From an uncultured Bacillota bacterium (lineage in GTDB: Bacteria; Bacillota; Clostridia; Christensenellales; Borkfalkiaceae), in contig CASFTB010000015.1 of NCBI GenBank assembly GCA_949297575.1, forward strand, positions 1-33,639: a stretch of 33,639 bases of DNA. The letters run 5' to 3'. The notes beneath the pieces were generated by a model. That model did no database searches, was not told the origin of the DNA, and was given only the letters and a program-made list of their open reading frames with translations. Numbering within the stretch: position 1 is the first letter of the stretch; each line of letters opens with the position of its first letter. The position numbers and the translations under genes are program-made. This document shows, one piece after another, positions 1-5,092 of this stretch.

Positions 1-1
1 C

Positions 2-23
2 GCGCTTCCGCTTGCGGAAGCGC
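2..23. repeat. GC-rich perfect hairpin at the left edge
   Basis: GCGCTTCCG and CGGAAGCGC pair perfectly around a CTTG loop. On the plus strand it is followed some 25 nt later by a T-rich stretch (47-59), so it could be the end of a gene lying left of the window. No T-tract follows directly, so a terminator call is weak. Confidence 0.4.
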
Positions 24-187
24 GGCCTCCCTGTTGCTGCGTATATCTTTTCTTTTTTCATGTGTCCACTTGAGTGGACTTAACGGTTTTGCCATCGTTA
101 GCGATATACATGCAGAAAACTTTCCTTCGTGTCTGGAGGATGAGAAAACTGAATTGCATAATTTGCTTAGGTGAGGATGTATTTATG

Positions 188-216
188 AAAAAGCGGCGTC
201 TTTGACGTCGCGTTTT
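188..216. terminator. Candidate bidirectional hairpin terminator in AT-rich region
   Basis: The arms GCGGCGTC (193-200) and GACGTCGC (204-211) pair with one G-T wobble around TTT. They are flanked by AAAA on the left and TTTT on the right, so it can read as a weak terminator in either direction. It lies within an AT-rich stretch (about 60-480) that holds no convincing gene. A second small palindrome, GTCCACT-TG-AGTGGAC, lies at 63-78. Confidence 0.4.
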
Positions 217-315
217 CATATTGTTCATACTATATCGTATTCTTTGCCTCCGGTAAGCATGCTGCATATTTTTATAGTGTCATTTCGGTTATTGGTTACA
301 GCAAAGCAATACCAC

Positions 316-435
316 TCACCATGTATAACGCCCGATACGTTTGCCGATATCATCAAAAGGACGAAAAATTTTTCTTCTCCAATCAGGACGCGGATTATAG
401 GATGTGGAAAATATTATTTCATTTTCTTCATCTTT
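316..435 (-). pseudogene. Possible C-terminal remnant of a protein gene
   Basis: On the minus strand an open frame of about 39 codons ends in a stop at 316. It reads like real protein: charged and aromatic-rich, including PRPDWRRKIFRPFDDIGKR near the end. It has no start codon with a ribosome binding site, and upstream it runs into the terminator hairpin at 493-523. I see no family match. It could be a degraded gene end or chance; the AT content of this patch (about 220-480) differs from the GC-rich surroundings. Confidence 0.2.
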
Positions 436-492
436 AGCGCCTCGCAAAACGGATCGGAGTAAAGCAAGAGCTTCCGAAAAAGTTCCGCACAC

Positions 493-523
493 AAAAAAGA
501 GCGCCGCGCGTTTCGCGCGGCGC
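493..523 (-). terminator. Strong intrinsic terminator of the 1158-493 transcript
   Basis: Read on the minus strand, GCGCCGCGCG (523-514), loop AAA, CGCGCGGCGC (510-501) form a perfect 10-bp GC stem, followed by TCTTTTTTG. This is a textbook Rho-independent terminator. It closes the transcription unit that starts at the consensus promoter at 1165-1192. Confidence 0.85.
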
Positions 524-783
524 CGGAGAAGAGGCGGGCAGGGGATGCCATAGATGACCTCTGCCGCCGCCAACCGCCGCCCGTCGCCTGCGGAATCGCC
601 GCAGCGTCGTGCGTCGGACAGCTCCAAAACACGGCCCGCAGGGCAGAAGGCACTGCGGGCATTTTATTCGTCGCTATTCAGTTGTGAGGAACTTTTTAAG
701 ACGCTCTATTCCTTAAACCTATAATCAGCGCGGGTGCCTCCCGTCTGCAGCGCAGTCGGCCGCCCGCAAAAGCGGAATCAGTC

Positions 784-816
784 TTATTTTACCGTCCCTT
801 TCAGATACTCGTACAT
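784..816 (-). CDS. Mini-ORF 2 (10 codons) with ideal ribosome binding site
   Basis: ATG at 816-814, stop TAA at 786-784, encoding MYEYLKGTVK. AGGAGG (830-825) lies 8 nt upstream of the ATG, and the stop of mini-ORF 1 lies only 15 nt upstream of this start. The placement suggests translational coupling or a leader-peptide arrangement. No function can be assigned. The peptide resembles the start of RuvA proteins, but nothing RuvA-like follows the stop, so this is taken as coincidence. Confidence 0.35.
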   Translation of the reverse strand: MYEYLKGTVK

Positions 817-831
817 TGGACCGCCCTCCTT

Positions 832-867
832 TCAAGCAAGCTTACGAAGTAAGTCGGATCTGTACAT
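832..867 (-). CDS. Mini-ORF 1 (11 codons) with ideal ribosome binding site
   Basis: ATG at 867-865, stop TGA at 834-832, encoding MYRSDLLRKLA. GGGAGG (880-875) is 7 nt upstream of the ATG. A hairpin CTTAC-TTC-GTAAG lies inside the coding part. Together with mini-ORF 2 it forms a tandem pair of about 10-residue peptides, both starting Met-Tyr, inside an otherwise non-coding transcript. This could be a leader peptide, a regulatory uORF or chance. Confidence 0.35.
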   Translation of the reverse strand: MYRSDLLRKLA

Positions 868-1164
868 TGCAGTACCTCCCTTTTCTTTTCGGGCGCGAAC
901 CGCTCTGCCGCTCCATCCGTCCGGCACTCTTTTCCGATCGCCATAGTGTGATGCGGTGCGGGGAAAGCGCTTCCGCTCCTCTGCCCCCGATCGAAAATTA
1001 CCTTCTCTTCCTTTCTCTTTACCCTTGCGCCGATATTCCCGTGCACTTTTCCGGAGGAAACCGCCGCAAATTATTGTATATTGGGAGGGGGACAGGCTCG
1101 CGTGCCCGATCCGATTGAGTTGTACCGAGGGAAATGATCTGGATTTTTCCCTTAGGTCACCTTT

Positions 1165-1192
1165 ATTATACCATGGATTTTCCGCTTGTCAA
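1165..1192 (-). promoter_or_regulatory. Perfect-consensus sigma-A promoter
   Basis: On the minus strand: TTGACA (1192-1187), 16-nt spacer, TATAAT (1170-1165). Predicted start is near 1158. It points away from gerAC into the gene-free region, so it must drive the 1158-493 RNA. Confidence 0.85.
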
Positions 1193-1276
1193 GCCTATTT
1201 TTGAAAAATTTTTTACTTTTTTGAAATTTTCTTTCAGCTATCACATTTTGCTTTTACGGGAGAGCGGTCGCCGCGG

Positions 1277-2482
1277 TCAGTGCAGGGTGTCGAAGGCGAT
1301 GTCGTACGCCGCCCGCGCCTCCTGCAGGATCCCGCCCTGGATGCCGTCGAACCGCGCCGGGTAACGCCGCCACAGTTTCTGCCGCAGGCGGAAGAGGTCG
1401 CAGCCGCTCTCCCGGCTCTTTGCAAAAGCGGCGGAGAGCCGCGCCTCGAACTTTTCTTCCGCGGCGCGCAGTACGTGTGCGGGCACAAACGCCGTCTGGG
1501 CGATCTCCTCGCGGCTGCCGGCGGCGTTGGCGTCCGTGACCTGCGCCCGCGCGCGGATGCGGAAGGTCAGTACGGGCGTCCCGCCCTCCAGCCGCAGGGA
1601 GGAGGAGCGCTTACTTATCTTCATCTTCAGCGTATACGTGACCTCCCGCCCCTCTTCGAGCACCGTCACTTCCCCCGAGGCGAGCCCCGTCTTCGAGGCG
1701 GCGAGGTTATAGGCGAGCGTCTCCTCCGCGTCGAGGATGCCGACGCCCCTGCCCCTGTCGAAGAGCATTGTGCGCGAGGCGTCGAACACGTCTGCGTCGT
1801 TCTCGCCCGCGCCCTGCGCACCGCCTCCTCCCGCACTCTCCGCGGCCCCCGCGCTCTCCCCGCCGGCGGGATCGCCGCTGCCCGCCATCGCCTCCCGCTT
1901 TACGGACAGGTAGGGCAGAAAGCCGCCGCCGCTCTCGGAAAAATAGCCCATGGCGAACTCCCGGAGCGAGGTCACGCTCACCTGCCCCGTCTGCTGTGCC
2001 TCGGTCGAGAGCACCTTTTCGATGGCGGAAAAGGTCAGATCGCCCACGGGCGACTTTGCCTGCAGAGCCTCGGCGGCCTTTCCCTCGCATACCGCGACCA
2101 GGCAGGAATCCTCCACATACTGGCTGCGCAGAAAGAAATCGAGCACGCCGAAAACGTCCTCCCGCGCGACGGCTTCGCCCAGCAGCACGAGGCGGCAGTG
2201 CACGAGGGTGGGGTACCAGCCCGTCTTCTGGTTGAACTCGGCGATCGCTTCTCCCACCGTCGCCGCCCCCGCAACTTCGACGTTGCTCGCCTTCTGCCCC
2301 GTCTCGGAGGGCACGGCAATCTGCGCGGTCACGTCTATCTTTCCGCCCTCGGCGGCGTCGATGCCGATGGCGGTGACGATGGAAGTCTTCTGGATATCCA
2401 CCAGGCCGAAGTCGTTGGAGAAAAAGAGCAGGAGCAGCAGCGCTGCCCCGAATACGAAGATGCGCGTCCGCAACCTGTTCAT
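1277..2482 (-). CDS. gerAC: GerAC-family spore germination protein lacking a lipobox cysteine
   Basis: 401 aa, normal for Ger(x)C proteins, the outer-face subunit of the GerA-type nutrient germinant receptor in the spore inner membrane. After a hydrophobic N-terminal helix (about residues 8-22) comes the family hallmark VDIQKTSIVTAIGID, where most members start the mature lipoprotein with Cys-Trp-Asp. Here no cysteine is present at the expected site; FSNDFGLVDI stands in its place, so this copy should not be lipidated in the usual way. A Gly/Ala/Glu-rich low-complexity insert occurs around residues 195-225. The ATG overlaps the gerAB stop (ATGA, 2479-2482), so the two are translationally coupled. 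The longer frame reaching 3103 runs through gerAB in another frame and is rejected. No clear terminator follows. Family call is strong; the germinant is unknown. Confidence 0.9.
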   Translation of the reverse strand: MNRLRTRIFVFGAALLLLLFFSNDFGLVDIQKTSIVTAIGIDAAEGGKIDVTAQIAVPSETGQKASNVEVAGAATVGEAIAEFNQKTGWYPTLVHCRLVLLGEAVAREDVFGVLDFFLRSQYVEDSCLVAVCEGKAAEALQAKSPVGDLTFSAIEKVLSTEAQQTGQVSVTSLREFAMGYFSESGGGFLPYLSVKREAMAGSGDPAGGESAGAAESAGGGGAQGAGENDADVFDASRTMLFDRGRGVGILDAEETLAYNLAASKTGLASGEVTVLEEGREVTYTLKMKISKRSSSLRLEGGTPVLTFRIRARAQVTDANAAGSREEIAQTAFVPAHVLRAAEEKFEARLSAAFAKSRESGCDLFRLRQKLWRRYPARFDGIQGGILQEARAAYDIAFDTLH

Positions 2483-3552
2483 TGCCCGCGCCTCCTTTGC
2501 CCCTTCCGCAGCAGCGTCGCGAACAGGGGGAGCAGGTAGCAGAAGACCCCGAAAAGCGGCCATAGTGCCTCCGCGAACACCGTCTGCACCTCCCGGAAGG
2601 AATAGTTGAAAAACACCGTCAGCGCGAGCAGTGCCCCGTTCACGGCGAGCGCGGGCAGGAGCGGCCTGCACCCGATCGCCGTGCAGGCGCAGTGCGTGCA
2701 CAGCTGTAAGGGGATGCACAGCGCAAAGGCGAGCACCAGGCTGAGCGCGATGGCGGGGAGCAGGTCGATGCGCCCGAGAGAGGTGAACGCCGTCGTGTAT
2801 TTCGCGATCTGCGCGAGCGCGTTCTGCTGCAGGGGCGCGAGGTCTGCAAACACCGCATAGAAGACGGCGAGGAAGAGCAGCGTCGCGGCCGCGCCTGCCG
2901 CGAAGGACAGCATCACCTTCGCCGTTCCGCCCTTTTCGGCGCGGAAGTGCCCGAGGAAAAAGAGGGGGAACAGGCAGTCTGCGTACCGCGCCATCCCGTA
3001 CCGCCATCCGCGCAGCACGGGTGCCGCGCCCCTGCCCAGCACGGGCAGCAGCGCCGCGAAGTCCGCCTGCGGCAGCGCGAGGAAGATGAGCGCGGCGAAG
3101 CACACCGCAAAGAGGGGGAGGGCGATGTCTGCGATGCGCCCGATGCTCTCGAGTCCGCGCATGCAGGCGAACAGCCCGACGGCGAAAAAGGGCGCGAAGG
3201 AGAGGACGGTGGGCGCGTTTTCGTAGAGGACCTGCGTCACAAATCCCTTCTGCTCGAGAAGCGGAAGCAGTGCGGAGAGGGCGAAAAACAGCGCGAATAC
3301 ACCGTACACGACGCGCGCTGCGATCTCCCCGAAGGTGTTTTTCAGCAGCCCGAAAAAGGTCTGCTCCGTCCGCCCCGCCAGCAGCATGATCGCGAAGACG
3401 ACGATCCCCTCCGCGAGCAGGTTGCCCAGTGCGGAAAAGAGCAGGTCGTTGCCCGCATGGTAGGCGAGGGTCGCGGGATAGAGCAGCATGCGCGTCGCGG
3501 GCAGGAGCGCCGCGTACAGAAAGCAGATCTGCCGCAGTTTTATCTTATCCAT
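2479..3552 (-). CDS. gerAB: GerAB-family germination permease
   Basis: 357 aa integral membrane protein with about ten hydrophobic helices along its length, matching the GerAB/spore germination permease branch of the amino-acid/polyamine transporter superfamily. In GerA receptors this subunit binds the germinant. The start MDKIKLRQICFLY at 3552 is chosen because AGGAGG sits about 6 nt upstream; an in-frame ATG at 3573 would add seven residues. It overlaps the end of gerAA by 8 nt and the start of gerAC by 4 nt, so the three genes form one operon. Its position as the middle gene in the A-B-C order supports the call. Confidence 0.9.
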   Translation of the reverse strand: MDKIKLRQICFLYAALLPATRMLLYPATLAYHAGNDLLFSALGNLLAEGIVVFAIMLLAGRTEQTFFGLLKNTFGEIAARVVYGVFALFFALSALLPLLEQKGFVTQVLYENAPTVLSFAPFFAVGLFACMRGLESIGRIADIALPLFAVCFAALIFLALPQADFAALLPVLGRGAAPVLRGWRYGMARYADCLFPLFFLGHFRAEKGGTAKVMLSFAAGAAATLLFLAVFYAVFADLAPLQQNALAQIAKYTTAFTSLGRIDLLPAIALSLVLAFALCIPLQLCTHCACTAIGCRPLLPALAVNGALLALTVFFNYSFREVQTVFAEALWPLFGVFCYLLPLFATLLRKGQRRRGQ

Positions 3553-5092
3553 CCTCTTCCTCCTTTCCGGCATCCGTCTCCGTGCCCGAGGCGGGGCGTC
3601 CGCGCATCTTTGCGCCGGGATCCTCCGCGCCGCTCTCTTGCCTGATGCGCAGGCGCGTGCGGTTTTTGCCGCGCAGTGCGGCGGGGCGTTCGCGCAGCGA
3701 AAACACGCCCGCCTTATATACGGTGTCGCGCAGGTCGCGCCTTACGAGGGGCGCAAAGGGCGCCAGCGGCGGCACGCCGTAGCTGTCCGCCGTCACGAGA
3801 TAGTACAGGATGAGCGCCGTCAGCAGGATCACCCCGTACATGCCGATGCTCCCCGCCGTCAGCAGCAGCGCCAGCCGCACGAGGGAGAGGGTGCCCGTCA
3901 GGTCGGGTACCGTGTAGGCGGAAATACCGGAAAGCGCCACGATAATGATGGCGGGGGAGGAGACGAGCCCCGCCTTCACCGCCGTATCCCCCAGCACGAG
4001 CGCCCCGATGACGGAGAGTGCGAGCGCGACGTACTTCGGCATGCGGATGCTCGCCTCGATGAGGATCTCCAGCACGACGAGCAGAAAAAACATCTCCAGG
4101 CTCGGGGAGAGGGGCAGATCCTGTATCCCGCCCGAAACGGTCATCAGCAGGCCGAAGGGAAGCAACTGCAATTTGAACAGCTGCGCCGCCACGTACAGCG
4201 CGGGCAGGAAGAGGGAGAGCGCCACCGCCAGCAGGCGCAGCAGCCTGCTCACCGTCGCGCGGTAGGGGCTCACGAAGTAGTCCTGCGAGCTCTGAAAGTC
4301 CTCCGCGAGCATGTAGGGCAGCGTCAGCGCGATGGGCGAACCGTCCACCAGCACGCCCGCCCGCCCCTCGAGCAGCTTCGCGCAGAAGATATCCGGCTTT
4401 TCCGTCGTGCCCGCCTGTTTGAACAGCGAAAGCGGCCGTTCGGCGAGGAATTTCGCCACATAAGAGGAGTCGGGCACCCCGTCCGTATCCACGGCGGCGA
4501 GCCTGTTTTCTATCCTGCGCACGACCTCTCCGTCCGCGGTGCCCTCCAGCCAGACGATGCACACGGCGGTGCCGCTGAGGCGGCCGACGTTCACCGTCTT
4601 AAACCGCAGTGCGGGGGTCTTGAGCCTCCTGCGCACCAGGCTCATATTGGTCTTGACGTCCTCGATGAATCCCTCGCGCGGGCCCTTGACGGCGATCGCC
4701 GTCTGCGGCTCCGCGACGGCGCGCAGAGAGACCTTTTTCGTGCCGAGCACGAGCGCCCCCGCGATGCCGTCGATGAACAGCGCCGGGTTGCCGGCGAGCA
4801 CCTCCTTTGCGGCCTCTTCCGCATCTTCCGCCTCCTTGCTTTCGGGGAAGAGGATGCGCCGCTCCGCCGCGGCGAGGCTCGCGGGCGCCTCCTCCGAGGA
4901 GAGAGGCCTTGCCGCGAGCTGCCCCAAAAGTTCCTTGTCCGTAATGCCGTCCGCATACACCGCGGCGCAGCGCCTGCCGTCCTTCGTTTCAAAGCGGAAG
5001 ACGAGCACGTCCTCCGCGGGAAGGATGTCCTTGAGCTGTTTTACGTTTTCCTGCACGCTCTCCGTAAAGCGCGCATCGCTCCTTGTTTCCAC
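3545..5092 (-). CDS. gerAA: GerAA/SpoVAF-family spore germination protein
   Basis: 515 aa, typical length. It has a soluble N-terminal domain (residues 1 to about 280) containing the family-like segment GRAGVLVDGSPIALTLPYML, then about five membrane helices from about residue 285 with the conserved region around GIQDLPLSPSLEMFFLLVVLEILIEA, and a basic/acidic C-terminal tail. It is the first gene of the germinant receptor operon. The assigned start is GTG at 5092, with no strong ribosome binding site. A GTG twelve codons further in has GGAG just upstream and is an alternative. In relatives such operons are transcribed in the forespore by sigma-G, but I could not find a convincing sigma-G promoter in the short upstream gap. 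Confidence 0.9.
   Translation of the reverse strand: METRSDARFTESVQENVKQLKDILPAEDVLVFRFETKDGRRCAAVYADGITDKELLGQLAARPLSSEEAPASLAAAERRILFPESKEAEDAEEAAKEVLAGNPALFIDGIAGALVLGTKKVSLRAVAEPQTAIAVKGPREGFIEDVKTNMSLVRRRLKTPALRFKTVNVGRLSGTAVCIVWLEGTADGEVVRRIENRLAAVDTDGVPDSSYVAKFLAERPLSLFKQAGTTEKPDIFCAKLLEGRAGVLVDGSPIALTLPYMLAEDFQSSQDYFVSPYRATVSRLLRLLAVALSLFLPALYVAAQLFKLQLLPFGLLMTVSGGIQDLPLSPSLEMFFLLVVLEILIEASIRMPKYVALALSVIGALVLGDTAVKAGLVSSPAIIIVALSGISAYTVPDLTGTLSLVRLALLLTAGSIGMYGVILLTALILYYLVTADSYGVPPLAPFAPLVRRDLRDTVYKAGVFSLRERPAALRGKNRTRLRIRQESGAEDPGAKMRGRPASGTETDAGKEEEDG

Follow-up and report, generated by a model that had tools for sequence, protein, structure and literature searches.

Minigenes such as bar of phage lambda consist of a Shine-Dalgarno (SD) sequence, a start codon, one or two codons and a stop codon, and OLE, ROOL, GOLLD and the raiA motif are stand-alone structured bacterial RNAs. 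The boxA element usually acts from a position close to the 5' end of its RNA. NusB and NusE (S10) associate with the boxA of rRNA, according to the available text of PMC4807359. Control of the boxA type is also known for non-rRNA genes in gamma-proteobacteria, and in Escherichia coli suhB, where 6 nt separate the boxA from the SD, translation is repressed by the Nus complex (available portion of PMC5725501). Dual-function small RNAs are transcribed from their own promoter to a terminator and contain a coding small open reading frame (available portion of PMC5521070).

The window analyzed in this study is the whole stretch of 33,639 nucleotides from an uncultured Bacillota bacterium (contig CASFTB010000015.1). 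On its minus strand, from position 1158 to about 628, it carries one copy of an RNA gene family, which we tentatively read as a likely stand-alone RNA in which ribosomes on mini-ORFs would gate a predicted NusB-S10 site; we regard this reading as possible, somewhat short of probable. The features of this copy are collected in Table 1. The copies compared share the order of a consensus promoter, one to five mini-ORFs, a boxA-like motif and a terminator, joined within the family by a covarying helix. The comparisons given below lend good support to an RNA family that has no Rfam entry and is common to many related Clostridia.

Table 1. Features of the RNA locus and its upstream neighbor (window positions).
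Feature	Position	Strand	Evidence
gerAC (start inferred from MNRL..), upstream neighbor	1277..2482	-	Pfam Spore_GerAC_N, Spore_GerAC
Sigma-70-type promoter TTGACA-16-TATAAT, AT-rich tract 5' of it	1165..1192	-	12/12; kept in 22-locus Borkfalkia alignment
5' hairpin AAGGGAAA..TTTCCCT, then CGGTACAACTCAA	1115..1153	-	Conserved in Borkfalkia alignment
Conserved element CACAC-N-GGC-N-ATCGGAAAAGA-N-GCC	923..950	-	Conserved alignment columns
Shine-Dalgarno 1 (GGGAGGTACTGCA)	868..880	-	Sequence, Borkfalkia alignment
Mini-ORF1 MYRSDLLRKLA*, 11 codons	832..867	-	MY[KR]SDLRKLA* or close variant in most relatives
Shine-Dalgarno 2, in predicted small hairpin GGA..UCC just before start	818..829	-	Sequence
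Mini-ORF2 MYEYLKGTVK*, 10 codons	784..816	-	Sequence
Long-range helix, 5' arm AGGGAC, in ORF2 codons 6-8	794..799	-	Covariation
Long-range helix, 3' arm GUUCCU, just before 3' motif	687..692	-	Covariation
rRNA boxA-like motif CUCACAACUGAAUA	675..688	-	Top-scoring 14-mer of window RNA under rRNA leader/spacer profile
First terminator-like hairpin GCCCGCAG..CUGCGGGC-CGUGUUUU; probable 3' end	624..660 (stem 660-634)	-	Position after boxA-like motif conserved
Second, stronger terminator (that of the preliminary description)	493..524	-	Outside conserved unit

A preliminary description of this DNA had proposed a transcript of about 665 nt, running from a TTGACA-16-TATAAT promoter to a GC-rich terminator with a T-tract. 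Both signals are present: the promoter agrees with the consensus throughout, and the terminator has an 11-pair stem (10 G-C) followed by a T run. Promoter-like sites with at least 9 of 12 matches number five in positions 1-4000 of the window, compared with 0.7 +/- 0.8 in shuffled sequences. The proposed length did not hold, as the conserved unit seems to stop at the first hairpin. Apart from three matches to the second terminator hairpin alone, no blastn match extends beyond query position 559 (window 634), and under looser scoring 5 of 21 other Borkfalkia loci reach query positions 568-618. The end of the conserved unit points to an RNA that is probably about 530 nt long, with the hairpin at 524-493 serving as a second terminator. 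A terminator-like hairpin follows the boxA-like motif within 60 nt in 44 of 50 RNAs, with a median spacing of 12 nt.

No match to an Rfam family was found in the whole window at gathering scores. At E <= 10, positions 1-1400 gave 11 matches, every one below gathering, and the best of these was suhB (29.5 of 41 bits, E 0.00098), covering the second terminator hairpin. No family of Rfam 15, with OLE, ROOL, GOLLD, raiA, RNase P, tmRNA, SRP, 6S and T-box among those considered, reached its gathering score, and the search of 20 relatives at E <= 0.5 returned three hits, none over the RNA. The earlier judgment by eye that no known family is present thus agrees with Rfam, for this copy at gathering and for the 20 relatives at E <= 0.5. 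A tmRNA or a stand-in for it was rejected: ARAGORN detected no tmRNA in the window, the genome has a separate one (143 bits), and tmRNA scores above cut-off in 23 of 25 genomes. The repeated GGA motifs in small predicted hairpins resemble those of the CsrB/RsmZ sponge RNAs, but a CsrA sponge was rejected because CsrA was found in none of the 25 genomes searched (16 of the genus, nine of other families), with three control genomes positive. Our literature search found no account of such an RNA, which is not proof of absence.

The window copy belongs to the genus Candidatus Borkfalkia (order Christensenellales at NCBI), whose family we take to be the Borkfalkiaceae of GTDB. Using positions 494-1192 as query, blastn found matches in 22 of 28 genomes of the genus, its own included, and in 29 of 201 genomes of a family sample; three of the seven hits in other genera (G053, G154, G160) cover the second terminator hairpin only. 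A pattern scan of the genome contigs yielded 30 loci. A model of the ORF1-ORF2 region that uses sequence only, and for which 18 sequences partly from the same loci served as training set, matched 26 of the 28 same-genus genomes and 125 of the 201 family genomes at E <= 0.1; the weak hits among these are not all real, two of 33 loci examined (L141, L151) being without the features. At E < 1e-6 it matched 57 of the 201 genomes (26 of genus g1, 25 of g10, four of g8 and two of g14), with one such match per genome and several training sequences among the matches. The architecture was read in 10 genera (g1, g3, g4, g5, g7, g8, g9, g10, g14 and g16), some of them represented by a single locus.

An order-wide search matched 17 of 297 genomes, 14 in the family and three outside (G208, G239, G240). 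Genome G239 and its congener G212 contain three MY*-type sites with basic mini-ORFs in between, and G208 has one clear site; in all three genomes the 3' end consists, by eye, of a boxA-like motif and then a terminator. Judged by sequence, the architecture thus recurs in at least two other families (f13 and f9), while the evidence for the helix is limited to its own family. G240 (f14) has one SD-led ORF and no clear 3' motif. An exact-pattern search was positive in 5 of 396 genomes of the order, all inside the family, and in 5 of 391 genomes of the class, three in the family and two being chance hits in unrelated sequence. A further locus (L083, positions 4680-5050 of a Eubacterium sp. contig) has a promoter followed by MK* and MY* units with a matching SD context, and no recognizable helix or boxA; possibly the RNA is more widely distributed, or this case is due to chance or misbinning. 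The two g7 loci L144 and L145 have the RNase P RNA gene, identified by Rfam hits, downstream of the RNA and in the same orientation. In genus g16 (L139) the RNA contains four SD-led sites, M* and MY* among them, and is followed at 1217-1310 by a Gut-1-like RNA match (46.1 bits, gathering 50).

The preliminary description saw no normal gene and missed two SD-led tiny ORFs (867-832 and 816-784), the first of which is under selection at the peptide level. The mean number of SD-led ORFs of at most 20 codons is 1.89 in the 27 RNAs from Borkfalkia, compared with 0.049 in dinucleotide shuffles; it is 2.1 in eight g10 copies (shuffles 0.055) and 1.0-1.2 in g8, g3 and g5 (shuffles 0.015-0.039). The encoded peptides range from M*, MY* and MHK* up to 19 residues. 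At loci read in g8, g14 and g3, the SD of the next ORF lies inside the tail of the preceding ORF1-type ORF (e.g., ..RRGR* with GGAAGG in g8). Codons 2-9 of ORF1 show 14 synonymous changes and a single nonsynonymous one (R/K, conservative) among 24 Borkfalkia sequences, 16 of them distinct, with an expected synonymous fraction of 0.313 (p about 9e-7); this count, inferred by linking the distinct codons of each column without a tree, excludes L001, L164 and L165, and becomes 15 to 10 when L164 and L165, misaligned by an extra codon, are included. The extra in-frame codon occurs in the window copy and in L015, L164 and L165. This synonymous bias argues that the ORF1 peptide is under selection in Borkfalkia, and since mini-ORFs are present and one is constrained in this way, the RNA appears not to be purely noncoding. 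ORF2 shows 14 synonymous and 47 nonsynonymous changes in 25 sequences, compared with a neutral expectation of 0.234, so that its evolution, as far as codon changes tell, is neutral except for the start and the helix codons.

The last start is likely preceded by a GGA..UCC hairpin, as exact complements occur in 43 of 50 RNAs (mean 28.8, maximum 39 in 500 mononucleotide shuffles); changes from GGA/UCC to GGU/ACC were recognized by eye only. The second codon at this start is UAC in 42, AAC in seven and CAC in one of the 50, a bias that is partly by construction because the start-site finder required [TAC]CC[AG]ATG-NA[CT]. In genera g14, g7 and g4 (L126, L127, L144, L145, L152) the last site keeps its SD, with AUC or AUU replacing AUG. 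The family offers a concrete case of start-stop ORFs that are apparently kept as ribosome sites and not as peptides.

The helix connects ORF2 with the sequence next to the 3' motif, and its arms differ among relatives (GGAACGG/CCGUUUC, AGAGACG/UGUCUCU, AAGGCGUUGU/GCAACGCCUU, GGGCGGA/UCCGCCC). In 50 RNAs chosen for a recognizable motif, a choice that favors this test and the motif test alike, the best helix had a mean of 6.26 bp, compared with 5.25 +/- 0.15 for re-dealt partners (maximum 5.74 in 2000 trials); for the 23 RNAs outside Borkfalkia the values were 6.13 and 4.68 +/- 0.22. Six of the 50 (L005, L018, L066, L075, L135, L149) have a best helix of at most 4 bp. The set consists of 47 RNAs hand-picked from 73 start-site records and three from locus reading. 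The 26 dropped records include duplicates from upstream ORFs, 11 records with no recognizable 3' motif within reach (L023, L063, L073, L079, L083, L123, L125, L129, L134, L137, L148) and five in which the last site is of another type or not resolved (L065, L127, L144, L145, L156). A gap-free alignment in one register comprises 32 of the 50 RNAs, namely all 27 from Borkfalkia and five others. In this alignment 86.2% of the helix cells pair (29-56% in slid partner controls) and 27 cells are changed on both sides, compared with 10.4 in shuffles (0/500 as high); the number of pairs with a both-side change, 6 vs 4.5, was reached by 61 of 500 shuffles and is weak, as one of five measures.

These comparisons reveal compensatory changes in a long-range helix across genera. 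The suggestion of an undescribed structured RNA made in the preliminary description stands in so far as no Rfam family matches and this helix covaries, but the mini-ORFs and the boxA-like motif had escaped it. The fold of the RNA as a whole is unremarkable: the window copy alone has a z of -0.68, with 3 of 20 shuffles folding as well, and the RNAalifold consensus for the whole RNA is poor (MFE -120.8, covariance term +83.4). The 5' arm starts at nucleotide 16-19 (A of the start codon = 0) in 42 of the 50 RNAs, with positions 13-23 searched, and the best helix of the other eight lies outside this spacing. The footprint of an initiating ribosome ends just short of this position. At the five g14, g7 and g4 loci with AUC or AUU, a helix, for example GCUUGC/GCAAGC or GCCUGC/GCAGGC, occurs at a similar spacing, as read partly by eye. 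Three g8 loci (L128, L138, L158) contain a candidate pseudoknot (UAAUUUCG/CGAAAUUA) that crosses the long-range helix beside the 3' motif.

The rRNA operons of the family (L168, L189-L203) contain a near-uniform boxA-like leader element and a distinct one before 23S. All 16 of the 16S leaders contain UUAAAAAUUGAAUA or a variant close to it, and all four spacers that precede 23S contain UUGACAACUGCAUA; in the four loci with both ends available, the leader element sits at the base of the helix formed by leader and trailer. By position, these rRNA elements occupy the places of boxA. The 3' motif of the RNA reads CUUA[AC]AACUGAAUA or near it in most Borkfalkia copies. A profile built from rRNA only (20 sequences, 16 leaders and four spacers of the family) ranks this motif first in 45 of the 50 RNAs, partly by selection because the 50 had a recognizable motif, and places it among the best three positions in 49. 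The motif scores 10.6 on average, compared with 4.35 +/- 3.2 for the best position in shuffled RNAs, and at least five RNAs (L075, L090, L135, L147, L150) score 3.0 or less. By this measure of similarity the 3' motif is an rRNA-type boxA sequence, and binding of NusB-S10 is predicted. A boxA located at the 3' end cannot, by its position, antiterminate the body of its own transcript; because such elements normally act at the other end, we infer a role as decoy or in termination.

In agreement with the preliminary description, the gene immediately 5' of the RNA on its strand is gerAC, preceded by gerAB and gerAA (Pfam). Of 19 other Borkfalkia loci, 15 have gerAC in this place, as have all three g10 loci; in the remaining Borkfalkia loci, L032 is too near the contig end to tell, L040 and L045 are rearranged, and L035 has none. 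No gerAC was found near the one g8 locus. In the 15 Borkfalkia loci with gerAC, the spoIIE gene precedes gerAA, but in all three g10 loci it follows the RNA. By crude ORF calls, 4 of 20 is the largest number of Borkfalkia loci that have a downstream gene cluster in common, and the earlier guess of a regulatory leader finds no support in this genus. The lack of a general downstream gene in Borkfalkia suggests that the RNA is most likely a stand-alone unit, located in two genera within a sporulation-gene neighborhood. The contig of the window begins (positions 1-24) inside a GC-rich inverted repeat (cgcgcttccg..cggaagcgcg).

As the promoter, the ribosome sites, the helix, the boxA-like motif and the terminator form a chain, we propose a translation-gated boxA RNA. 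The RNA would be abundant, and ribosomes would load at every SD, make very short peptides and move to the next ORF. On the last ORF, an initiating ribosome would meet the helix just past its footprint, and an elongating one would open it; since the other arm adjoins the boxA-like motif, boxA, exposed or masked, would then bind or release NusB-S10. ORF1 would serve as a sensing peptide and ORF2 as a lever. The output would track the capacity for translation, and transcription of rRNA, in which this motif also serves, could be subject to feedback from it. A simple form of this mechanism is weakened by two observations: the motif lies at the 3' end, and the last site has AUC or AUU in g14, g7 and g4, so that elongation through the helix cannot be general. 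A more specific version, a ribosome-counting RNA in which free ribosomes pass along the mini-ORFs and unzip the helix and the exposed boxA soaks up NusB-S10 and throttles rRNA antitermination, we consider quite unlikely; if true, a single RNA would couple rRNA synthesis back to translation capacity throughout the family and its relatives.

The constraint on ORF1 in Borkfalkia, the extra in-frame codon of the window copy and three relatives, and the basic character, often with aromatic residues, of many ORF1-type peptides of other genera (by eye) would also be expected of a micropeptide mRNA, in which the tiny peptides, ORF1 above all, matter and the remainder is an elaborate 5' and 3' UTR. We regard this as rather unlikely, however, as the peptides are unlike between genera, several ORFs are simply M*, MY*, MH* or MHK*, ORF2 evolves neutrally by its counts of 14 and 47, and both helix and motif are left unexplained. 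In a ribosome sponge, acting for instance in slow growth or sporulation, several strong SDs would trap initiating 30S or 70S particles at the one to five starts per RNA, and the helix, 16-19 nt past the last start in 42 of 50, would be a roadblock, with the boxA-like motif incidental or an aid to synthesis. The AUC and AUU codons are at home in such a sponge, as is the gerA and spoIIE neighborhood in two genera, but it accounts neither for the conservation of the motif nor for the constraint on the amino acids of ORF1, and we judge it unlikely.

The position of the motif, a median of about 12 nt before a terminator-like hairpin, would fit a cis-acting attenuator in which mini-ORF translation and NusB-S10 decide on read-through into the next gene. 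In g10 that gene would be spoIIE, which comes next in 3 of 3 loci, and boxA control of non-rRNA genes in gamma-proteobacteria offers a parallel (available portion of PMC5725501). Such an attenuator is improbable, since at most 4 of the 20 Borkfalkia loci have a downstream cluster in common and spoIIE lies upstream of gerAA there instead (15 loci). The consensus promoter and the boxA-like motif might finally be a relic of an rRNA operon leader whose rRNA genes were lost, but Rfam finds no rRNA within the window, the motif is at the wrong end, the ORFs are conserved and the helix covaries, and one strong copy per genome is kept across genera, which makes this origin very improbable. Returning to the translation-gated boxA RNA, it would, if its boxA is functional, be a stand-alone RNA through which the Nus machinery of rRNA synthesis is linked to the occupancy by ribosomes. 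With this family, bacteria known mainly through metagenomes gain a further conserved RNA.

Among known systems, the 5' UTR of suhB is similar in that an rRNA-type boxA occurs in a non-rRNA transcript near ribosome-binding sites and that translation and Nus factors interact there, as proposed here; suhB is itself a Nus-factor gene, whereas here the predicted boxA lies 3' of several mini-ORFs in a stand-alone RNA (available portion of PMC5725501). With the dual-function small RNAs the RNA has in common its own promoter, its terminator and a coding small ORF (available portion of PMC5521070), the latter in the form of the constraint on ORF1 in Borkfalkia, as read from its codons. It differs from them in that it has several mini-ORFs in tandem, of 1-19 codons, whose peptides are for the most part not conserved. 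OLE, ROOL, GOLLD and the raiA motif are likewise stand-alone and structured, but differ in that they have Rfam models and no Rfam family matches here; to our knowledge, tandem mini-ORFs and boxA are not among their features. We know of no other RNA with chained mini-ORFs, a near-fixed distance from start to helix and a motif resembling the boxA of rRNA. Its shortest units are built like the minigenes of lambda bar, but here they are chained within one conserved RNA together with a helix and a boxA-like motif.
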